A stretch of 36,263 nt of DNA from a virus. The notes under the pieces are model-generated. The model had not been told where the DNA came from. It did not search any database and saw nothing but the letters and a program-made list of their open reading frames with translations. Shown one piece after another: positions 2,744 through 26,149 of this stretch. The translations under genes were made by a program, and so were the position numbers. Each line of letters begins with the position of its first letter. Within the stretch, counting starts at the first letter, position 1. The stretch lies in the IMG/VR virus record IMGVR_UViG_3300042340_000188, positions 1 through 36,263 of that record; one strand, written 5' to 3'.

Positions 2744-3652
2744 ATGGGCTCGACGATGGTCCAGCTTGTCCAGCAAGTCTCGAACGAGTTGGGCCTCGTC
2801 GCGCCGTCCACCGTGGCGGGCAACAACGCGCAGGACGTCATCCAGACCCTCGCGCTGATGAACGCGTCGGGCTACGAGCTGCTCAAGCGCCACGATTGGC
2901 GAGAACTGACGCGGCCCTACCGCTTCACGGTCCAGTACCTCGCCACGACCGGCACATGGACGACCTCGTCGGCGGTGATCACGGGCATCCCCGACACAAC
3001 CGGCCTCGACGCGACGTACATGGCGGTCGGCACGGGCATCAACCAGGACACGTTCATCCAATCGGTGGACAGCGGCACGCAGGTGACGCTGAACCAGACG
3101 CCGGCATCCGCCGGGACCGGCGCGGCGATCACCTTCGCCAAGACCAAGTACGCGCTGCCCAGCGACTACGACAGCCTCGTCCCGCGCACGCAGTGGGACA
3201 AGTCCAAGCGATGGGAGATGCTCGGCCCCGAGAGCCCGCAGCAGTGGGAATGGCTGCTCTCGGGCTACATCTCGACCGGCCCGCGCATCCGCTGGCGGCT
3301 CTACGGCGGCTACTTCCAGATCTGGCCGCCCACCACGACCGCCGAATATCTCGGCTTCGAGTACCGCTCCAAGGGCTGGGCGCTGTCGTCTGCCGGCGCG
3401 GTGAAGAACAGCTTCACCGCCGACGACGACACCTGCGTCTATCCCGACCGCGTCATGGTCCTCATGACGAAGCTCAAGTACTTCGAGGCGAAGGGCTTCG
3501 ACACGACCGCGCTCTACCGCGACTTCCTGCGCGAGCTGGAGACCGCGATGGGGCAGGACATGTCGGCGGCGAACCTGTCCTTCGCGCCGCGCCCCGGCAC
3601 GGTGCTGATCGGCTACGACAACATCCCCGACAGCGGCTACGGGTCCACCTGA
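2744..3652 (+). CDS. Head-to-tail adaptor (SU10/P22 gp4-like)
   Basis: The protein has 302 aa. The helical N-terminus (VQLVQQVSNELG, then ALMNASGYELLKRHDWREL) is typical of podovirus adaptor proteins that dock under the portal. Residues about 65-140 are a Thr/Gly-rich beta insertion (GTWTTSSAVITG to TPASAGTGAAITF). The chain then returns to the adaptor fold with YALPSDYDSLV and a tyrosine/tryptophan-rich segment. A C-terminal helix follows (KLKYFEAKGFDT). It is followed after one base by the tail hub gene, the usual gene order. The exact subfamily assignment is from memory. Confidence 0.8.
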   Translation: MGSTMVQLVQQVSNELGLVAPSTVAGNNAQDVIQTLALMNASGYELLKRHDWRELTRPYRFTVQYLATTGTWTTSSAVITGIPDTTGLDATYMAVGTGINQDTFIQSVDSGTQVTLNQTPASAGTGAAITFAKTKYALPSDYDSLVPRTQWDKSKRWEMLGPESPQQWEWLLSGYISTGPRIRWRLYGGYFQIWPPTTTAEYLGFEYRSKGWALSSAGAVKNSFTADDDTCVYPDRVMVLMTKLKYFEAKGFDTTALYRDFLRELETAMGQDMSAANLSFAPRPGTVLIGYDNIPDSGYGST

Positions 3653-3653
3653 C

Positions 3654-5219
3654 ATGGTCAGGCCGTCCCCGATCATGCGCGCGGCCAAGCAGGCGACGGC
3701 GCGCGTCGCGTCCGTGCCGGCGCCCATCGGCGGCTGGAACGCGCGCGACAGCCTCGCGAACATGAAGCCGACCGACGCGGTGTCGCTGACCAACTACTTC
3801 CCGACCGCAACCAACGTCGTGCTGCGCGGCGGCTACCAAAAACACGCCACGGGCCTGCCCGGTCAGGTCGAGACGCTGATGGCGTACAATGGCGCCACGA
3901 CGCAGTCGCTGTTCGCGATCTCGGGCAACAACATCTACAACGTGACGAGCGCGGGCGCGGTCGGCGCGGCGGCGGTGTCGGGCCTGACCAACAGCCGATG
4001 GGAAAGCACGAACGTCGCCACCGCAGGCGGCAACTTCCTCTACGCGGTCTCGGGCGGCAACAGCCCGCTGCTCTATGACGGCTCGACTTGGACCTCGATT
4101 ACGGGCGCCTCGACGCCAGCCATCACGGGCGTGACGACGAGCGAACTCGACAACGTCGCGCTGTTCAAGAACCGCCTATGGTTCATCCAGCGCAACACGC
4201 TCAAGGCTTGGTATCTGCCCACGCAGTCGGTCGGCGGCGCCGCACAGGTGTTGGACCTCTCGACGGTCGCGCGCAAGGGCGGCTATCTGCTCGCGATGGG
4301 CGTCTGGACGATCGACGCGGGCTTCGGCCTCGACGACAACCTCGTTTTCGTCACGACGCAGGGCGAGATCATCATCTACCGCGGCACCGACCCGGCCAAC
4401 GTCTCGACGTGGTCGCTGGTCGGCGTCTGGGCGATGGGCGCGCCGATGGGCAAGCGGTGCCTCGCCAAGTTCGCGGGCGACCTCGCCTACATCGCCTTCG
4501 ACGGCCTGTTCCCGCTCTCGCAGGCGCTCCAGAGCGCGCGCGTCGCGCCGCAGAGCGTGGCGCTGACCGACAAGATCCAGGGCGCCTTCGCGACCGCCAC
4601 GACGTCCTATCAGGGCTTGTTCGGCTGGGAGATCTGCGTCGCGCCGAAGTTCAACGCCATCGTAGTGAACATCCCCGTCGGCACCGGCTCGCAGCAGCAG
4701 TACGTCATGAACACCATCGTGCAGTCGTGGTGCAACTTCACGGGCTGGCCCGCCAACTGCTTCACGCTCCACAAGCAGGATCTGTGGTTTGGCGGCACCG
4801 ATTACGTCGCCAAGGCGTGGACGGACGATCACGCGGACGACAACGTCGCCATCTCCGCTGGCGCGCTGCAGGCCTTCAACTACTTCGGCTCACGCGGCCA
4901 AAAGAAGATCTTCACCCGGGCGAGGCCTAACCTGTTCGCGGACGGGCAGCCCTCGGTCTTCGTGGGCATCAACGTCGATTTCCAGACCAACGACACCTCG
5001 GCCCCGCTGGCCTATCTGCCGCCGACCGGCGCGGTCTGGGACACGGCGATCTGGGATAGTTCGTCATGGGGCGCGGGCCAGAACATCTCGCTGAACTGGC
5101 AGGGCGTCACGGGCGTGGGGTACTGCGGGTCGATCAACTTCCGCTCGGCCAGCAAGGGCCTGTCGCTGGAATGGGCCGCGACGGACGTCGTGTTCATGCC
5201 GGGCTGGGTCGGCATATGA
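3654..5219 (+). CDS. Tail hub / P22 gp10-like tail accessory protein
   Basis: This 521-aa protein is beta-rich. A conserved N-terminal signature (PIGGWNARDSLANMKPTDAVSL, then NYFPTATNVVLRGG) is shared by many podovirus tail proteins located after the adaptor. Repeated short segments such as LFAISGNNIYNVTSAG and FLYAVSGGNSPLLYDG suggest a propeller-like fold. Near the C-terminus is a WDTAIWDSSSWG motif (around 5036-5074) resembling the start of the protein at 32984. It probably forms the tail tube below the adaptor. The final ATGA is shared with the next gene. Confidence 0.8.
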   Translation: MVRPSPIMRAAKQATARVASVPAPIGGWNARDSLANMKPTDAVSLTNYFPTATNVVLRGGYQKHATGLPGQVETLMAYNGATTQSLFAISGNNIYNVTSAGAVGAAAVSGLTNSRWESTNVATAGGNFLYAVSGGNSPLLYDGSTWTSITGASTPAITGVTTSELDNVALFKNRLWFIQRNTLKAWYLPTQSVGGAAQVLDLSTVARKGGYLLAMGVWTIDAGFGLDDNLVFVTTQGEIIIYRGTDPANVSTWSLVGVWAMGAPMGKRCLAKFAGDLAYIAFDGLFPLSQALQSARVAPQSVALTDKIQGAFATATTSYQGLFGWEICVAPKFNAIVVNIPVGTGSQQQYVMNTIVQSWCNFTGWPANCFTLHKQDLWFGGTDYVAKAWTDDHADDNVAISAGALQAFNYFGSRGQKKIFTRARPNLFADGQPSVFVGINVDFQTNDTSAPLAYLPPTGAVWDTAIWDSSSWGAGQNISLNWQGVTGVGYCGSINFRSASKGLSLEWAATDVVFMPGWVGI

Positions 5220-15968: not shown

Positions 15969-16290
15969 TGCCTGCCTCACCGGGCCTCACCGGGCCGTGC
16001 CGCGCCATGCCCTGCCTGCCTCGCCTCGCCATGCCATGCCCCGCCCCGCCCCGCCTCGCCTGCCTTGCGCCGCCGCGCCGTGCCAGACCGTGCCTTGCCT
16101 GCTTTGCTTCGCCCTGCCGCGCCACGCCGCGCCATGCCGCGCCATGCCTGCCATGCCTTGCCCTGCAAAGCCGCTCCTTGCCTCGCCCCGCCCTGCCTCG
16201 CCTGCCTTGCCGTGCCCTGACGTGCCGAGCCGTGCCTCGCCGCGCCCTGCCTGCCATGCCCCACCACACCAAGCCCAACCACGCCTTGCC
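15969..16290 (-). repeat. Degenerate GGCNN pentanucleotide array
   Basis: On the minus strand, the stop codon TAA of the gene at 16291 is followed at once by back-to-back units of the form GGCNN (GGCAT, GGCGC, GGCAA, GGCGA, GGCAG and others), with occasional 4-base GGCA and diverged units. More than fifty GGC cores occur in about 320 bases. The array ends exactly at the AAGGAGG ribosome site of the next gene. All reading frames are open because the units lack stops, so the apparent ORFs (Ala/Arg/Gly/Gln-rich) are not credible genes. This is the only stretch above 300 bases without a gene. Confidence 0.9.
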
Positions 16291-16746
16291 TTACCCGGCG
16301 CGCTTCTTGCGCTCGTTGCGCGCAAGAAACTTGTTGATGCTCGCGCGCAGTTCGTCGCTGGCGTCAAGCGCGTCGGCGTAGCGCAACAGCCGCGCTTGGA
16401 CGCTTCGCAGGTCGGTCAGCAGATGCGCGATGACCGCCCGCGTCGCTTCCGGCGACGACTGCACCACCGAGACCGCGACGTACTCGCGCGATCCCCGATC
16501 CACGTTGAGATAGGCGCGCACAGGCGGCTCGTTCGGCTTGTGCGGCTCCAGATGAACGACCACGCGGCGGATCAGCCCGCGTGCTTGGAGCAGCCGATAC
16601 TTCTCGGCAGCCTCGGCGTCGTTCCAATCGAACATCGAGTGCAGCGACGAATTGGGGCTGCGCGCCCGATCCACGACGGCTTCCGGCGTGAGCTTGTCGC
16701 CAAGTTCTCGCGCCATTTCCTCCAGTTCGCGCTCCCAGCGGGACAT
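16291..16746 (-). CDS. Conserved phage protein, 151 aa, partner of the 209-aa protein
   Basis: The start ATG 16746 overlaps the stop of the 209-aa gene. The protein has a helical N-terminus (WERELEEMARELGDKLTPEA) with a VVDRARSPNSSLHSMFDWND segment, then EAAEKYRLLQARGLIRRVVV, a beta strand region (VRAYLNVDRG), and a helical basic C-terminus (LRASINKFLARNERKKRAG). From memory the pairing with a 209-aa-type neighbour recurs in other phages, but no function is known to me. It lies immediately upstream of the pentamer array. Confidence 0.65.
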   Translation of the reverse strand: MSRWERELEEMARELGDKLTPEAVVDRARSPNSSLHSMFDWNDAEAAEKYRLLQARGLIRRVVVHLEPHKPNEPPVRAYLNVDRGSREYVAVSVVQSSPEATRAVIAHLLTDLRSVQARLLRYADALDASDELRASINKFLARNERKKRAG

Positions 16747-17375
16747 CACGACACCACCTCGAACGTGCCCCAACCGAGCCCGTAGCTCTCGCGGCTGAAC
16801 GGACGCCCCTCTCCGACGCCGATCTGCATTCCGGCGCGGGCCAGCAGGTTGGACACATCTCCGACCCTGAACTGGTCGCCGTCCCAGCGCACTCGAAGCG
16901 TGGCGCTCCAGCGCCGGAACATCGGCCTGGAGCGCAAATCGGTCACGCCCGTCTGGTTTCGCGTCGCAGCGACGTGCTGCTCGTAGTCGCCGATGATCCG
17001 CACCAGCGGCTGTCCGCTGACGAGGTCGAGTCCGTCCGCCTCGACGAAGACGGACATCTTCGCCATCGTCATCTTGAAGCCGACCAGGCGGCAGGCATCG
17101 ATCATCGCCGCGCGCCATGCCGACGCCGGAAAGCCGATGGTGCCATCCTCCAGGCGGTGCAGCGCCGCCTCGCAGTCAGCCGCGAAGTCGCGCGCCTCGC
17201 GCTCTTTCTTCGATTTCGCCGTCGATCCGGCCTCGTGCTTCTCGCGCATCTTCTGGCGCGCCTTCTCGGAGAAGGCGGCCATGACCAGCGGCGCTGTGCC
17301 GACGATCTCGAACTGCGCGCGCTCGAACTTCGGCGCGGCGATGGTGACGATCTCTTGCTTCGTGAACGCGTTCAT
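16746..17375 (-). CDS. Conserved phage protein, possibly RAMP/Cas7-like fold
   Basis: The 209-aa protein starts at ATG 17375 after GGGAGG; a TTG six codons earlier lies in that ribosome site and is rejected. Visible features: FEIVGTAPLVMAAFSEKAR (22-40), a Lys-rich segment (50-62), GFPASAWRAAMIDACR (81-96), and a glycine-rich C-terminus with GVGEGRPFSRESYGLGWGTF (186-205). The small-residue-led helix in the middle and the terminal Gly-rich loop resemble RAMP-superfamily proteins, but sequence alone does not establish homology. It sits between RecT and the 151-aa protein, so a nucleic-acid role is likely. I recall this family as widespread in phages without assigned function. Confidence 0.6.
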   Translation of the reverse strand: MNAFTKQEIVTIAAPKFERAQFEIVGTAPLVMAAFSEKARQKMREKHEAGSTAKSKKEREARDFAADCEAALHRLEDGTIGFPASAWRAAMIDACRLVGFKMTMAKMSVFVEADGLDLVSGQPLVRIIGDYEQHVAATRNQTGVTDLRSRPMFRRWSATLRVRWDGDQFRVGDVSNLLARAGMQIGVGEGRPFSRESYGLGWGTFEVVS

Positions 17376-17389
17376 CTGAACCTCCCTTT

Positions 17390-18334
17390 TCAACCAGCCA
17401 GATCCGCCACCCGGCGGCGGCTCTCCTCCATGATGCGCTCATGCGCCTCGGGCGACGCGGCACTGATGTCGTCGAGGTTGCCGCGCTGGGCCAGCATGAT
17501 CTTGTCGATGTCCTTGACGCTCGCCGCCTTGCGGATCGCCGCGACGATGGCGCGGGCGCGCTCGGCCAGCTCGGGCGTGAGGGTTGCGCCGGTCGGGGAG
17601 GCTGGTGAGGCCTCTGCGGAGGGGGAAGGCTCCGCATCCGACGCGGCCGGCGCGATGTTGTCGGCCTCTTGTTCCACGTTGTCGAGCAGGGCGTCCATCG
17701 CGGCGCTGACGGCTGCGAGGGGGGTGGAGGGCGGGGGCGTGATGTCGCGCATGGTCACGCTCGACGGCGCGGCGAGGTCGTCGTCGGCGTGGATGCCCAG
17801 CACGGCCTCGGGCATGTAGCGCCGCGCCCACTCGCGCGCGCCACGATAGGCCAGCATCTGGTCGGTGTTCTTCTTCCACTGCTCGTTGCTGGTCTTCCAG
17901 CCGCCGACCGTGCCGACGACCGCGCGCGGCGCGACGTCACCGATCAGCTTGCCCAGTACCGTGACCTGGCGCTGGTCACCAGCGCCGCTGTACTGGTAGT
18001 CGAGGCTGCCCTGCAGCTTGCCCGAGGCGTTCACGACGGCGGCGATCAGCTTGCCCTCGTAGCCAAGCTTGCCGCTCAGCACATACGTGTGCTGAGCGAC
18101 TGCGAACGGGTCCATGCGCCAGCGGAAGGCCTGCGCCGCGACGAGGAAACAATCGCCCAGCTTGCCCTCGCCGCGCAGATGCGCGGGCGCGAGCGAGGCG
18201 CTCGACATCAGTTTCGCGACGCGCTGGAGCTGGCCGAAGATGTCGCTGTCGAGGTAGACGGCGACGGGGTCCGAGAAGTCCACGGCGACGGCGCGCGGCG
18301 CGGTGGCGGTCGGAAGGTTCGTGACGTTGGTCAT
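17390..18334 (-). CDS. recT: RecT-family single-strand annealing recombinase
   Basis: The 314-aa protein starts at ATG 18334, overlapping the exonuclease stop (ATGA). The core RecT signature is at about 59-102: GDCFLVAAQAFRWRMDPFAV, then QHTYVLSGKLGYEGK and LIAAVVN. A second conserved segment, WARRYMPEAVLGIH, comes later. After about residue 205 there is a Pro/Ser/Ala-rich linker and a helical C-terminus (ELAERARAIVAAIRKAASVK). RecT proteins bind single-stranded DNA and anneal complementary strands, acting with an exonuclease in phage recombination. It is encoded in the order exonuclease then RecT. Confidence 0.9.
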   Translation of the reverse strand: MTNVTNLPTATAPRAVAVDFSDPVAVYLDSDIFGQLQRVAKLMSSASLAPAHLRGEGKLGDCFLVAAQAFRWRMDPFAVAQHTYVLSGKLGYEGKLIAAVVNASGKLQGSLDYQYSGAGDQRQVTVLGKLIGDVAPRAVVGTVGGWKTSNEQWKKNTDQMLAYRGAREWARRYMPEAVLGIHADDDLAAPSSVTMRDITPPPSTPLAAVSAAMDALLDNVEQEADNIAPAASDAEPSPSAEASPASPTGATLTPELAERARAIVAAIRKAASVKDIDKIMLAQRGNLDDISAASPEAHERIMEESRRRVADLAG

Positions 18335-19200
18335 TTCGTGTACTCCCTCTGGATGGATGCGTTGATCTCGTTGGCCGCCCACTGCGGCAGGCCGATTTCA
18401 ACAACACCATCGGTGTAGCCCGGCCAGTTGTTCTGCGCAACGCTTTTCGCGAAGCGACGCAGGATCTGGCGCAGCTGCTGGTCGGCGGCGCTCGCGGCGT
18501 CGGCGGACAAGGCGGCGACGTAGCCGAGGTGGGGCTCGTCGTTGCCGACCACCATGAACGCATGGGTCGGGCGCTGGATGCCGAGCGTCGAGGCGACCAG
18601 CCGAACCATCGCGTCCCCGAGGTCGTACCTGAGATTGGCGGCGGTCTTGCGCCAGGAGTTCGGCGCGGGCGATGCAGTGGTCTTGAGGTTCACCGCCAGC
18701 CCGGCGCGCGAGATGTAGAGGTCGGGGCGGCACAGCAGCGTCAGGCCGGTCTCCTCGTCCTTCGCGACCATCGTCACCTCGGCGCGACCGCCAGCCTCGA
18801 GGAGGCGGCGAGCGTCGGCGTTGCGCATGAGGCCCTCGCGCATCCCGACGATCCGCATGTGGTCGGTGAAGGAGACGATCTGTCGATCGCCCTGCGCCTC
18901 GCGCCACGCCTTGCCCTCGCGCGTCGCGAAGGACAGGCCATCGGGCTTGACCGAGAACCGCTGGTGAAAGGCCTCGGCGCCCTCCAAGATATACGCGTGC
19001 GCGGCGGTGCCAAGCTCCATCGACGCGCTCGGATCGCGGTGAAAGCGGGCCGGGTTGCCGCGCCAGAAGGCGTGGGCGTGGGCTGGGCATTCGGTCTCGT
19101 ACGATACGAGGTCCGATCCGCTGACCGCCGGGGCCGCGAAAGCCTCGGCGCTCAGGTACGCCTCGAACGAGACGTCGTTGTGGATGCCCTCAGCGATCAT
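18331..19200 (-). CDS. RecE-like (exonuclease VIII C-terminal) PD-(D/E)XK nuclease
   Basis: The 289-aa protein partners RecT by resecting double-stranded DNA ends. Family features: VSGSDLVSYETECPAHAHAF (26-45), GTAAHAYILEG (64-74) with the conserved His, and CRPDLYISRAGLAVNLKTT (157-175). In that last motif D160 is the first acid and K173 the lysine, but the residue two before the lysine is N171 (codon 18688-18690, AAC), where family members usually have Asp or Glu. The length fits the nuclease domain alone. The activity could be reduced or altered. The stop overlaps the RecT start. Confidence 0.85.
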   Translation of the reverse strand: MIAEGIHNDVSFEAYLSAEAFAAPAVSGSDLVSYETECPAHAHAFWRGNPARFHRDPSASMELGTAAHAYILEGAEAFHQRFSVKPDGLSFATREGKAWREAQGDRQIVSFTDHMRIVGMREGLMRNADARRLLEAGGRAEVTMVAKDEETGLTLLCRPDLYISRAGLAVNLKTTASPAPNSWRKTAANLRYDLGDAMVRLVASTLGIQRPTHAFMVVGNDEPHLGYVAALSADAASAADQQLRQILRRFAKSVAQNNWPGYTDGVVEIGLPQWAANEINASIQREYTK

Positions 19201-20524: not shown

Positions 20525-21258
20525 AGCGCGACACCGCAATCGAGCGCGTGTCGAACGCGTTGCGGGCCGAGGGCGGGCGCGCTTCGACGCAGCGGCTGTG
20601 CGAAGTTCTGCCCGGCATGGGCCGGGGGTTGGTGTTGATGGCCCTCGCGCACTTGAAGCGCCGCGAGCTGGTAGACAGCGACTACGCTCCGCGCAAGCAG
20701 CCCGAGTGCGGCTGGACCTACTGGTTCACGCCCGCGAAGAAGATGCATCGCGGCAGCCGTTTCAAGGCGGCGGTGTCGAACGGCTACACCCGGCTCGTCG
20801 TCGAGTACCTCGACGCGGCTGGCGGCGAGGCGCCGATCGACGCATGGCTCGCGTGGAGCGCGCAGATCACGCATCGGGTGCGGCTGCACTCGGGCGTCCA
20901 CAGCCTGCGGCGGCGCGGGCTGATCGAGGTCGGCAAGGCGCGCGTTCGGCTGACCGACAAGGGCAGGCAAGCGCTCGCGCTTGGTCGCACCGTCGCTCCC
21001 ATCGCGCCGACCATCGCGGACTTCGAGGACATCGCCGAGCCCGAGACGCGCTCGACCGATCCCGAGGCCTGCGTCGCGCGCGCCGAGAAGCTCTGGCCGA
21101 AGCTGATGCGCGGCCGCAGGTACGAGGACATCCCGGCGCACCTCATTCGCCCGCAGCGCCTGCTGCGATGGACGCCGCCGCTGCAAGAGCGGTCGATGAC
21201 CGGGTCGAGCGGGGCGATGCTGGCCGAGAGCCGCGATGCGACGGGAGGGACGCCATGA
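20521..21258 (+). CDS. Protein with two winged-helix-like domains, unknown
   Basis: The 245-aa protein starts at ATG 20521, overlapping the regulator stop. Residues about 5-65 (AIERVSNALRAEGGRASTQR, ALAHLKRRELVDSDY) and about 87-152 (RLVVEYLDAAGGEAPIDAWL, GVHSLRRRGLIEVGKARVRL) each show the helix-helix-recognition helix-wing pattern, with the second ending LTDKGRQAL. The C-terminal third is helical and ends in a disordered tail. It is probably a DNA-binding early regulator. No named family is recognised. Confidence 0.6.
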   Translation: MKRDTAIERVSNALRAEGGRASTQRLCEVLPGMGRGLVLMALAHLKRRELVDSDYAPRKQPECGWTYWFTPAKKMHRGSRFKAAVSNGYTRLVVEYLDAAGGEAPIDAWLAWSAQITHRVRLHSGVHSLRRRGLIEVGKARVRLTDKGRQALALGRTVAPIAPTIADFEDIAEPETRSTDPEACVARAEKLWPKLMRGRRYEDIPAHLIRPQRLLRWTPPLQERSMTGSSGAMLAESRDATGGTP

Positions 21259-22091
21259 GGAACAATCCGTTCTTTTTGAAGGGTCCGGCAGTTGTCTCGT
21301 TCAGCGGCGGCAGGACGTCCGCCTACATGCTCTGTCGTATCGTCCAAGCGCATGGCGGCGAGCTGCCGAGCGACGTCCTGGTCATCTTCGCCAACACCGG
21401 CAAGGAGATGCCGCAGACGCTCGATTTCGTGCGCGATTGCGGCGAGCGATGGGGCGTGCCGATCATGTGGGTCGAGTACGCCGACCACGACGAGGTCGCG
21501 CAGCGGTGGCGCATCACCAGCTACGCCGACGCCAGCCGCGCGGGCGAGCCGTTCGCGGCGCTGATCCGGCGCAAGAAGATGCTGCCCAACGTCGTCGCCA
21601 GGTTCTGCACGGCCGACCTCAAGATCCGCGCCATGCACCGCATGTTGAAGGCGACGCTGGGTTGGGACGAGTGGACCGAGGCCGTTGGCCTGCGCGCGGA
21701 CGAGATGCACAGGGTCTCGCGCATCAAGGCGTCCAACGAAGGCAATCGGTACGTTGTCTGTCCGTTAGCAGATGCTGGCATCACGAAGCGCGACGTAGCG
21801 GCGTTCTGGGAGCGGCAGAACTTCGATTTGCAGCTACCCAACATCAACGGCCGCACACCGCACGGGAACTGCGACCTGTGCTTCCTGAAACCCATTGCCA
21901 CCGTGCGCGCTATCATGCGTGACATTCCGGGCTCGGCGGACTGGTGGGTGCAACAGGAGAAAGTGTACGGTGATCAATGGCGCAAGGATTGGCCGTCATA
22001 CGCCCAGATAGCCGCCAATGTGGAGGCAAGCGCAGACCTGTTCGCAGAAGAGGGCAGGGCCACTGAATGCTTCTGCAATGGTGATACATGA
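21255..22091 (+). CDS. PAPS-reductase-like PP-loop family protein
   Basis: The 278-aa protein starts at ATG 21255 with GGGAGGGA at 21243-21250. The PP-loop SGGRTSAYM is at residues 17-25, followed by VLVIFANTGKEMPQTLDFV, the second family motif. Cysteines in ARFCTADLK, then CDLCFLKP and finally CFC could hold a metal or Fe-S cluster. Family members activate substrates by adenylation or carry out sulfur chemistry; phage versions are common but their substrate is unknown. It is expressed with replication and recombination genes (RusA follows, overlapping by ATGA), so a role in nucleotide or DNA modification is possible. Confidence 0.8.
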   Translation: MRNNPFFLKGPAVVSFSGGRTSAYMLCRIVQAHGGELPSDVLVIFANTGKEMPQTLDFVRDCGERWGVPIMWVEYADHDEVAQRWRITSYADASRAGEPFAALIRRKKMLPNVVARFCTADLKIRAMHRMLKATLGWDEWTEAVGLRADEMHRVSRIKASNEGNRYVVCPLADAGITKRDVAAFWERQNFDLQLPNINGRTPHGNCDLCFLKPIATVRAIMRDIPGSADWWVQQEKVYGDQWRKDWPSYAQIAANVEASADLFAEEGRATECFCNGDT

Positions 22092-22912: not shown

Positions 22913-23748
22913 TGATGGCAGGACGACCAGATAGCTGGATGCCGCTGTACGTCGCGGACTACCTCGCGGACACGGCGCATCTGACCGCCGCCCAGAGCGG
23001 CGCCTACCTCCACCTCATCATGGCCTACTGGCGAGCCGGCGGGCCGCTGCGCCTGAGCGACGACGCGCTTGCTCGAGCGGCCAGGATGACGCCTGACGAG
23101 TGGATCGAGAACCGTGACGCGGTGCTTGCGTTCTTCGCGGTCTCGTCCGGTCAGATCCGTCATGGCCGGATCGACCACGAACTGGCCGAGGCCGCCCGCC
23201 TCTACGACGCCCGCAAGAGGCGCACCGAGGCCGCGACCGCCGCGAGGGCCGCGCGCAACGTAACGGACAACGTAACGATGAACGTAACGTCCGACGTAAC
23301 GGACAACGTAACGTGCATACAACCACAACCACAACCACAACCACCCTTTCCTTCGGAAAGAACAAGTTCTGAGAAACCGGTTCTGGGGGGTGCAGGGGGG
23401 AAGCGCGCAGAGCGCGCCGACCGAGGAGCCCGCCTGCCCGACGATTGGTCGCCTTCGGAGGATGACCGCGCCTTCGCCTGCAGCCTCGGCGTCGCGGTCG
23501 ATCGCGAGGCGGCGTCGTTCCGCGACTACTGGCACAGCAAGCCCGGCGCGGACGGGCGGAAGGTCAACTGGAGCGCGACCTGGAGGAACTGGGTGCGCCG
23601 CAGCAGCGAACGGAGGACGACGAATGGCACAGGATCTCGCACGGGCAACGGCTTTCTCGCAGTCGCTCGCGAACTGGCTGCAGAGGGCCGAGACCGAGAC
23701 GCCGGGTTCGCAGCTTTCGATCCCCCCGAGCGTCCGGACCGAGGCTGA
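22912..23748 (+). CDS. DUF1376-type replication initiation-like protein
   Basis: The 278-aa protein has a clear DUF1376 N-terminus (WMPLYVADYLADTAHLTAAQ, then SGAYLHLIMAYWRAGGPL and a DDALARAARMTPDEW segment). A repeat-encoded middle (about 116-145: five NVTx-type tetrapeptides, then Gln-Pro dipeptides) follows, then a C-terminal DWSPSEDDRAFA and FRDYWHSKPGADGRKVNWSA block seen in phage replication proteins. It probably recognises the origin formed by the iterons inside its own gene, as lambda O does. The last 125 bases overlap the next gene in another frame. Confidence 0.75.
   Translation: MMAGRPDSWMPLYVADYLADTAHLTAAQSGAYLHLIMAYWRAGGPLRLSDDALARAARMTPDEWIENRDAVLAFFAVSSGQIRHGRIDHELAEAARLYDARKRRTEAATAARAARNVTDNVTMNVTSDVTDNVTCIQPQPQPQPPFPSERTSSEKPVLGGAGGKRAERADRGARLPDDWSPSEDDRAFACSLGVAVDREAASFRDYWHSKPGADGRKVNWSATWRNWVRRSSERRTTNGTGSRTGNGFLAVARELAAEGRDRDAGFAAFDPPERPDRG
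23257..23316 (+). repeat. Five 12-bp iterons, candidate replication origin
   Basis: Five contiguous 12-bp direct repeats share the core ACGTAACG: units begin at 23257, 23269, 23281, 23293 and 23305, with only the last three bases and one first base varying. They lie inside the initiator-like gene. The number, spacing and position match lambdoid origins inside gene O. Confidence 0.75.
23319..23342 (+). repeat. Four ACAACC hexamer repeats beside the iterons
   Basis: Four exact ACAACC units follow the iterons after two bases, giving a strand-biased, purine-poor tract followed by CACCCTTTCC. The block encodes alternating Gln-Pro. It is less GC-rich than its surroundings and could be the unwinding or single-strand-exposed part of the origin. 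Confidence 0.65.
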
Positions 23749-24257: not shown

Positions 24258-24461
24258 TTAGAGCGTTTCGGGTCGGAGGTGGGGTGGGAGGCGCTGGTAG
24301 GCCTCGCGGAGGGCTTGGCGCCATTCGGGCGCCGCGAGGAGGTCGGTGTCGGCGACGCCCCGGCGCAGGAGGACGTCCCGCAGGGCCTCGGCGTCGAGGA
24401 GGGAGGCCTCGCCCATCGCGTGGCGGAGGCGGGCAAGGCTCATGGCGGGGTGGACGCGCAT
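24258..24461 (-). CDS. Small protein, unknown (67 aa)
   Basis: The start ATG 24461 shares a base with the preceding stop (TGATG). The protein is helical with SLARLRHAMGEASLLDAEAL, then RDVLLRRGVADTDLLAAPEW and RQALREAYQRLPPHLRPE. It is the second gene of a two-gene leftward unit. No family is recognised. Confidence 0.55.
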   Translation of the reverse strand: MRVHPAMSLARLRHAMGEASLLDAEALRDVLLRRGVADTDLLAAPEWRQALREAYQRLPPHLRPETL

Positions 24462-24724
24462 CACGCGCGGCTCCGGTCGGCCTCGGCGTCGATGCCGGCG
24501 TCGATGGCGATCTCCTCGGCGGTGAGGTCGGTGTCCTGCCTCAGCGTGCGTTCCTGCGCCATCGCGAGGAGCATCGGCAGGCGCGCCGTGAGCTCGGCGA
24601 CGTGCTCGTCGTTGCGCCCCTCCAAGGCGAGGGCGTTGCGGATGTACCGCAGGCCCATCTGCTTTTCCGCGCAGGAGATTGTGCGGGAGAAGGCGGCGCG
24701 GTACTGGTGGAGCGTCTTGGCCAT
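24461..24724 (-). CDS. Small protein, unknown (87 aa)
   Basis: ATG 24724 follows GGGAGG by about six bases; the frame is open further upstream across the promoter region and that part is rejected. The protein is helical and acidic at the end (LHQYRAAFSRTISCAEKQMG, then the LALEGRNDEHVAELTARLPM segment and LTAEEIAIDAGIDAEADRS). The leader contains a GGCGCC-TC-GGCGCC hairpin (24742-24755). It is probably early or independently controlled, since it has its own promoter-like site. Confidence 0.55.
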   Translation of the reverse strand: MAKTLHQYRAAFSRTISCAEKQMGLRYIRNALALEGRNDEHVAELTARLPMLLAMAQERTLRQDTDLTAEEIAIDAGIDAEADRSRA

Positions 24725-24767
24725 CGTGGCCTCCCTTGGTTGGCGCCTCGGCGCCGTTGCGATGCGA

Positions 24768-24791
24768 GGAACATACACCGCCGGTTTCGCA
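24768..24791 (-). promoter_or_regulatory. Candidate leftward promoter, shared motif copy 2
   Basis: The minus strand carries GGTGTATGTTCC (24779-24768), identical to the motif at 20243-20232. Upstream both copies have AAA and CG at matching spacing (AAA-N-CG-NN before the 12-mer). The likely -10 is TATGTT; no good -35 is seen here. It probably drives the two-gene unit at 24724-24258. Confidence 0.5.
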
Positions 24792-24883
24792 GCACCATTG
24801 CAAAGAACGCAGGGCGATATGCGGTTGACGCATGGCGTGGGGCGGGGCAATCTTCTGAACCTTGGCTTAACAAAAGGCAGCTC

Positions 24884-26149
24884 GTGATCCAGATCGAGCG
24901 CGTCGCGATCGCGGCGCTTATCCCATATGTGCGGAACTCACGCACTCACTCGGACGCTCAGGTTGCGCAGATCGCCGCTAGCATCCGCGAGTTCGGCTTC
25001 ACGAATCCCGTGTTGCTGGACGAGGCGAACGGCATCATCGCCGGCCACGGCCGCGTGCTGGCCGCGCGTAAGCTCGGGATGCAGGACGTTCCGGCAATTC
25101 GGCTGGCGCACCTGACCGAGGCGCAGAAGCGGGCCTATGTGATCGCCGACAATAAGCTGGCGCTCAACGCGGGCTGGGACGAAGAGCTGCTGCGCCTGGA
25201 GTTGAAGGATCTGCAGGATCTCAATTTCGACGTGGCGCTGACCGGCTTCAGCACCGAAGAGCTTGACGCGCTTATGGCGCCGCCGGGAACCGAGGGCCTG
25301 ACCGATCCTGACGCGGTGCCAGAAGCGCCAGAGCATCCTGTCTCGGTGCCGGGCGACGTCTGGCTGCTTGGTCGGCACCGGCTGGCTTGCGGCGACTGCA
25401 CCGATCCGCTCGTCGTGGAGAAAGCGCTGGCCGGCGTGAAGCCGCACCTGATGGTGACGGACCCGCCGTATGGGGTGAACTACGACCCGAATTGGCGCAA
25501 TGAGCCCGAAAAGCTGAACCTCAAGTCTGGGTCCGCAATGAAGCCACGGACAGCGGCGGTCGGGCGCGTGCTCAACGATGATAGGTCAGACTGGACCGAA
25601 ACTTGGGCGCTCTTCCCCGGAGACGTTGTCTACATTTGGCACGGTGAACGACAAAGCCCGGAACTGGTGGCGCACTTGCGAAACTGTGGCTTCGAGCCGC
25701 GCAATCTGATCGTTTGGGCAAAATCAAGCCTTGTGATCAGCCGAGGCCACTACCACCCGCAGCACGAGACATGCTGGTATGCGGTGCGGAAATCAGCTAC
25801 CGCGCATTGGGCCGGCGACAGGAAGCAGTCAACGCTTTGGCAAATTGACAAGCCCCGGAAGTCCGAGACCGGCCACGGCACCCAAAAGCCGGTCGAGTGC
25901 ATGCGCCGGCCGATCGAGAACAACTCGTCGCCTGGCCAAGCCGTCTACGAGCCGTTCTCCGGCTCCGGCACAACGATCATCGCCGCCGAAATGACTGGCC
26001 GCGCTTGCCACGCCATCGAGCTGAATGCGGCCTATGTCGATGTGGCGATCAAGCGCTGGCAGGAATTCACCGGGCAGGCCGCCACGCTTGAGGGCGATGG
26101 ACGCAGCTTCACCGATGTAGCGACCGAGCGATGCAAAGCCGCCGCATGA
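24884..26149 (+). CDS. ParB-like domain fused to DNA N4/N6 methyltransferase
   Basis: A GTG at 24884, a few bases after AAGG, starts the conserved protein (421 aa); the open frame upstream has no homology-like features. Residues 1 to about 105 are a ParB/sulfiredoxin-type domain (LIPYVRNSRTHSDAQVAQIA, then GIIAGHGRVLAARKLG). The methyltransferase follows: DPPY at 193-196, then EPFSGSGTT from 356, the motif IV before motif I order of beta-class enzymes. Such fusions methylate adenine or cytosine amino groups in phage DNA and can protect it from host restriction. It is first in the rightward late unit, overlapping the next gene. Confidence 0.9.
   Translation: MIQIERVAIAALIPYVRNSRTHSDAQVAQIAASIREFGFTNPVLLDEANGIIAGHGRVLAARKLGMQDVPAIRLAHLTEAQKRAYVIADNKLALNAGWDEELLRLELKDLQDLNFDVALTGFSTEELDALMAPPGTEGLTDPDAVPEAPEHPVSVPGDVWLLGRHRLACGDCTDPLVVEKALAGVKPHLMVTDPPYGVNYDPNWRNEPEKLNLKSGSAMKPRTAAVGRVLNDDRSDWTETWALFPGDVVYIWHGERQSPELVAHLRNCGFEPRNLIVWAKSSLVISRGHYHPQHETCWYAVRKSATAHWAGDRKQSTLWQIDKPRKSETGHGTQKPVECMRRPIENNSSPGQAVYEPFSGSGTTIIAAEMTGRACHAIELNAAYVDVAIKRWQEFTGQAATLEGDGRSFTDVATERCKAAA

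Follow-up and report, generated by a model that had tools for sequence, protein, structure and literature searches.

A phage RAMP gene, its partner gene and a tail-less array of GGY-NN pentamers as a very probable VIPR system

A three-part locus on the minus strand of a phage DNA very probably is a phage-encoded VIPR system. VIPR is a phage-encoded, RNA-guided DNA-binding system that comprises vrRNAs, the RAMP protein Vipr and the accessory gene vap; it is reported from experiments to repress the genes of competing phages (PMC13142463, a 2026 preprint). The vrRNAs are built of YNNGG repeats, 9-16 per vrRNA by definition, and their NN pairs bind dsDNA with one base skipped per step; the accessory genes are grouped as vap1-6 (PMC13142463). 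The DNA analysed here is the IMG/VR record IMGVR_UViG_3300042340_000188, taken over its whole length of 36,263 nt and called the window. The direct evidence consists of the homology to Vipr, the RAMP fold, the GGY/NN code, the linkage of vipr, vap and array, the cassette structure of the array and the swapping of its cassettes. The genes and the array are located as follows.

18331..19200, minus strand: exonuclease VIII-like (PDDEXK) protein, a neighbour outside the conserved module (homology and survey)
17390..18334, minus strand: RecT-like annealing protein, a neighbour outside the conserved module (homology and survey)
16746..17375, minus strand: vipr, 209-aa single-RRM RAMP protein, Cas7/Csm3-like (phrog_4652, E 1.6e-22; homology and fold)
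16291..16746, minus strand: putative vap, 151-aa accessory protein (family phrog_15946)
15973..16295, minus strand: vrRNA-type array of 323 nt, seven cassettes of GGY-NN pentamers (parsed at GCA/GGC joints)

Along the minus strand the order is exonuclease, recT, vipr, vap and array, and the initial annotation had correctly located the 209-aa gene, the 151-aa gene and the array directly behind the latter. The recT gene lies 14 nt upstream of vipr. The TGA stop codon of vipr and the ATG start codon of vap share one A (TGATG), so that translational coupling of the two genes is plausible. The array starts inside the stop codon of vap (GGTAA), and 3' of its last cassette follow a GGCA, a Shine-Dalgarno-like AAGGAGG and then a small open reading frame. 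When the minus strand was inspected for promoter-like sites between 15700 and 19300, a single one was found at about 19000, within the exonuclease gene. An operon transcript would carry vipr, vap and the array. Since the window also encodes a portal, a head protein and an amidase, the locus is phage-borne, as VIPR systems mainly are. An Rfam scan of the window and ten related loci gave no match.

Elsewhere in the window, the plus strand encodes a phosphoadenosine phosphosulfate reductase-like gene at 20598-22091, possibly a moron of sulfur metabolism, and at 24284-26149 a 621-aa protein that matches ParB-like and DNA methyltransferase families. At 23256-23344, a short tandem repeat with a 12-base unit (CAACGTAACGGA) adjoins one with a 6-base unit (ACAACC).

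The 209-aa protein contains GFPASAWRAAMIDACR and GVGEGRPFSRESYGLGWGTF, and a G-rich loop near its C terminus reads GVGEGRP...GLGWG. Searched with phmmer, it matched chain D of the PDB entry 36pp, the 'SUSP1 Vipr protein', with an E value of 1.5e-4. When its family profile was compared with the sequences of the solved structures, SUSP1 Vipr (PDB 36pp) was the sole match (E 6.2e-8), and blastp aligned the 209-aa protein to the product of vipr from phage phiSUSP1 with 22.9% identity over 179 aligned positions. An AF2 model computed from an alignment of 53 sequences reached a pLDDT of 84.7 and a pTM of 0.79; the prediction from the single sequence was unusable (pLDDT 40.6). With this model, all 50 PDB matches listed by Foldseek were chains of CRISPR effectors with Csm3/Cas7 at the top, and the best match in VIA-align was Csm3 with a Z score of 11.6, an rmsd of 3.5 and 148 residues. 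In a library of viral structures, the third match was named a Cas-associated RAMP superfamily protein. By sequence homology and by its predicted structure, the 209-aa protein is thus assigned as a Vipr homologue with a single-domain RAMP fold. The initial annotation had inferred a resemblance to Cas7-type RAMP proteins from the sequence and had proposed structure prediction with a structural search as the check; the predicted fold, together with the homology to the solved Vipr, bears this out.

The matches to Csm3/Cas7 would also fit an effector of class 1 CRISPR-Cas that a phage took up and that is now decayed or minimal. We consider this extremely unlikely, since the nearest solved sequence, and the sole profile match, is Vipr, long direct repeats with unique spacers were not seen, the array is pentameric only, and PADLOC has no family that matches either the 209-aa or the 151-aa protein. 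Searches with both proteins in Pfam and NCBIfam likewise returned no usable match.

A fragment of the SUSP1-type Vipr matches 129 phage records, 117 of them at 95% identity or more, and among the 30 matches listed the gene is called 'hypothetical protein' in 28 and is unannotated in 2. A stretch identical to this enterobacterial SUSP1 Vipr lies in the record of Staphylococcus phage SA1 (GU169904.1, 91721-91882), and the host label of this record may be wrong.

The repeat unit of the array is a pentamer of GGC or GGT followed by two variable bases (NN). On the minus strand of the window, 28 start positions were found from which at least seven of nine five-base steps land on GGY. When the whole window was dinucleotide-shuffled 30 times, no such position arose. 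When the array region alone was shuffled, the mean was 0.0 over 200 shuffles compared to 25 in the real sequence. The pentamer array is not due to chance. A second pentamer array was not found when both strands of the window were searched. The array was parsed into seven cassettes, all on the minus strand, whose NN pairs are given in their order.

16252..16295, minus strand: cassette 1, NN: AA AA GT TG TT GT GG AT (common to most sister phages)
16203..16251, minus strand: cassette 2, NN: AG GC GA AC TC AC AG AC AA
16149..16202, minus strand: cassette 3, NN: GA AG GG GA AA GC TT AG AA AT
16100..16148, minus strand: cassette 4, NN: AT GC AT GC GT GC AG GA AA
16061..16099, minus strand: cassette 5, NN: AA AC CT AC GC GG AA
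16017..16060, minus strand: cassette 6, NN: GA GG GG GG AT AT GA GA
15973..16016, minus strand: cassette 7, NN: AG AT GC AC CC GA CC GA

Across the related loci described below, 375 cassettes were read, of which 281 are distinct by their NN pairs. They are mostly 39-59 nt long, hold mostly 7-11 full pentamers plus a GGCA and abut directly, with no tail between them. The intervals between the GGCA/GGC joints have a length of 5n+4 in 280 of 298 cases, and each joint therefore sets the five-base phase back by one base. Among the distinct cassettes, the entropy per position was 0.48, 0.43 and 0.83 bits for GGY and 1.86 and 1.96 bits for NN; GGY is conserved and NN is nearly random. Of the 281, 128 have AA as their final NN pair, so that a joint often reads GGCAAGGCA/GGC. 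A coding function of the array was considered and rejected because cassettes of 5n+4 bases (39, 44, 49, 54 and so on) are mostly not multiples of three, and swapping them would therefore shift the reading frame.

A GG at every five bases should be compatible with two-layer quadruplexes, and the array lies within the operon ahead of the next gene. It could accordingly be a G-quadruplex or a regulatory leader, folded as RNA or DNA, that controls the downstream small gene, with NN as neutral filler. For such an element, however, the one-base slip that closes the cassettes is needless, the array length varies among the sister phages from 161 to 367 nt (arrays with both ends), and the arrays track vipr in unrelated neighbourhoods, either before or after it. 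This explanation is therefore most improbable.

The linkage of the three parts was surveyed among relatives. From IMG/VR, 21 loci were taken first and then 80 of 356 found; 33 records of named phages, 3 plasmids and 1 genome (Bradyrhizobium lablabi) were added. Of the first 21, L010, L013 and L015 were surveyed under their own names and most others as longer versions, and L026-L029 were excluded from the counts. The searches for vap and recT used stop-to-stop open reading frames of at least 60 codons. Both proteins match 33 phage records each with the same tally, 27 of Mycobacterium phages, 5 of Gordonia phages and 1 of a cyanophage. The adjacency survey that the initial annotation had proposed found the conserved partner gene, a vap homologue, in 84 of 87 loci, and an array on the vipr strand, within 900 bases before to 2500 bases after vipr, in 79 of 89, these loci not being independent as many are near-identical (the sister phages of the window). 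In the same 89 loci, arrays of equal strength were found neither elsewhere nor on the opposite strand (0 each). Four of the ten loci without a detected array end 540 bases or less after vipr. Homologues of recT were present in just 16 and of the exonuclease in 19 of the 87 loci. The conserved module is vipr, vap and array; RecT, next to which the initial annotation had placed the module, is not supported as a part of it and adjoins it chiefly in the group to which the window belongs.

These counts also bear on the possibility that the array is a DNA element, such as a recombination hot spot, a packaging signal or a signal for ssDNA annealing, that serves RecT and the exonuclease, with the RAMP protein as a DNA-binding helper. 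RecT and the exonuclease are encoded directly upstream in the window and the sister phages, and an exchange of cassettes is what recombination would yield. We regard this possibility as very unlikely, since both genes are rare next to vipr compared with vap and the arrays, the arrays without exception share the strand of vipr, and a variable NN within a conserved GGY is unlike a fixed recognition site.

In two of the named phages the array largely coincides with an annotated 'hypothetical protein'. These are gp48 of Mycobacterium phage Donkeykong (3492-3878 of locus L031, array at 3533-3842) and gp43 of Gordonia phage Pipp (4608-4877 of locus L033, array at 4609-4834), and both are probably guide RNA arrays and not genes. 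One of the plasmids, the 'plasmid 1' of Rhodoplanes serenus (NZ_LR026982.1, L151), is a 53.8-kb circle that carries head and tail genes of a phage. It also has a vipr homologue of 58% identity that is followed by a GGY-NN array. It looks like a phage-plasmid.

Near-identical phages among the 80-odd relatives allowed us to read the turnover of guides directly. When 14 loci of the window's group were compared with the window, the DNA was 95.9-100% identical in vipr and 93.2-100% in vap. The same loci differ in the content and order of the array cassettes (the array end was found in 11 of the 14). With letters for the distinct cassettes, the order is A-B-C-D-E-F-G in the window, H-C-D-E-I-G in L036, A-J-L-M-N-E-O-P in L037, A-B-L-V-W-G in L015 and A-B-e-f-g-G in L045; two pairs of loci, L038/L041 and L040/L042, have an identical order. 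Among 30 pairs of related cassettes, the GGY sites had changed in 26 of 756 cases, the NN sites in 52 of 504 and the joint sites in 1 of 120. The near-identity of vipr and vap with differing arrays, taken together with these changes, shows that guides are exchanged en bloc and the scaffold is retained.

Natural targets were searched for in IMG/VR with exact one-skip patterns (NNxNNx), following the rule of PMC13142463. Cassette 3 of the window gave 2 matches and cassette 2 gave 5, a cassette of the phages Donkeykong and ByChance gave 1, and a cassette common to four sister loci gave none. The eight matches fall in unrelated phages with a G+C content of 0.35-0.69, in mixed codon phases and with no DNA similarity to the window. 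They were therefore treated as chance, and a convincing natural target was not found for cassettes 2 and 3 in these scans. A one-skip search of the related loci (1.8 Mb, both strands) gave a mean best match of 0.825 compared to 0.828 for shuffled cassettes, hence no excess. A Bradyrhizobium cassette had 3 matches in 265 genomes and the control had 2, likewise no excess. A Toprim-like reading of one cassette of L046 was dropped with 0 exact one-skip matches in IMG/VR.

A cassette family of the sister phages, absent from the window, decodes to [YF]GAP[KN]A[G][KN], which we take to be the Walker A motif of ATPases. It had 26 exact matches in IMG/VR, 24 of them wobble-aligned, and about 16 of the 26 are Walker A motifs of ATPases when the peptides were read by eye. 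Because such motifs are common, these matches alone are no proof of targeting. The pattern GxxxxGK is decoded by 6 of the 281 cassettes (5 independent families) compared to a mean of 0.92 in shuffles that keep the last NN of each cassette, and none of 2000 shuffles reached 6. The motif was picked after the data had been seen, and Walker A motifs as targets are therefore a suggestive lead only. When the NN pairs were read at a three-base step, they fitted coding sequence about 3.7 standard deviations over permuted arrays, and at two-base and four-base steps 1.6 and 0.4, respectively. In a companion test of the codon phase, 4.9% of random vectors were as extreme, which weakens the three-base-step result. 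Taken together, the three-base step and the Walker A cassettes lend weak support to the one-skip rule.

By analogy to the results with SUSP1 and from the shared RAMP fold, Vipr would bind the RNA of the GGY-NN array, probably with one subunit per pentamer that grips the GGY and presents the NN. The NN pairs of one cassette would then read the dsDNA of a competing phage or mobile element, skipping one base per step, and by the same analogy this binding would repress the targeted gene; vap would assist the predicted Vipr complex. The initial annotation had suggested repeat-guided binding or host interference, which comes close to the experiments on the homologous system (PMC13142463) and for this locus would hold by analogy.

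A more specific reading is put forward tentatively. The locus could belong to a tail-less VIPR clade in which one RNA chains several guides, the GGCA/GGC slip marks the ends of the guides and the RAMP filament thereby begins and ends in register. Whole cassettes would be gained, lost and swapped by recombination at the near-identical joints without a Cas1-like adaptation. The preferred targets would be the conserved Walker A motifs of ATPases in the replication or recombination proteins of rival phages, with the skipped base on the wobble position, so that a synonymous change would give no escape.

VIPR is a recent RNA-guided system and a proposed ancestor of the CRISPR RAMPs; among the top matches for VIPR or vrRNA in the literature from 2025 on, there was no second paper. 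The kind of system is already described, and the informative feature of the locus is the tail-less cassette array, whose joints raise the question of how a guide is delimited without a tail. The cultured relatives, phages of M. smegmatis and Gordonia, open this kind of locus to testing.

With Csm3/Cas7 of type III CRISPR-Cas the 209-aa protein shares the RAMP/RRM fold and the G-rich loop, but it has only about 13% identity to them, is encoded by a stand-alone gene and has no crRNA-type repeat beside it; further cas genes were not noted. Among the closest known systems is the phrog_4652/phrog_15946 pair, which occurs in phages of Mycobacterium (Donkeykong and others) and of Gordonia and in the cyanophage Cy-LDV1; there, cassettes of GGY-NN pentamers are joined by GGCA/GGC as in the window, at a protein identity of 32-58%. 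For the two Mycobacterium phages that were read, the array lies upstream of vipr. In ODay and Pipp it separates vipr from vap, and in Cy-LDV1 it is found in this place as well as behind the two genes; a RecT relative of the window's kind was not found in the phages surveyed with this pair. The VIPR system of Escherichia phage phiSUSP1 resembles the locus in its homologous, phage-encoded single-domain RAMP of about 200 aa, in the accessory gene directly downstream and in the pentamers, whose NN varies and which share the strand of the adjacent genes. The 151-aa protein and its family profile, however, showed no similarity to that accessory gene (vap1). The phiSUSP1 repeats are mostly GGT and form separate units, each followed by a long non-repeat sequence, whereas the cassettes of the window are GGC-rich, have mostly 7-11 pentamers and are joined by GGCA/GGC without a 3' tail. 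The phiSUSP1 system is of type II, whose vrRNAs all finish with a structured 3' tail that is invariant, and other VIPR types have staggered arrays with overlapping vrRNAs (PMC13142463). The array of the window may be one of the latter.
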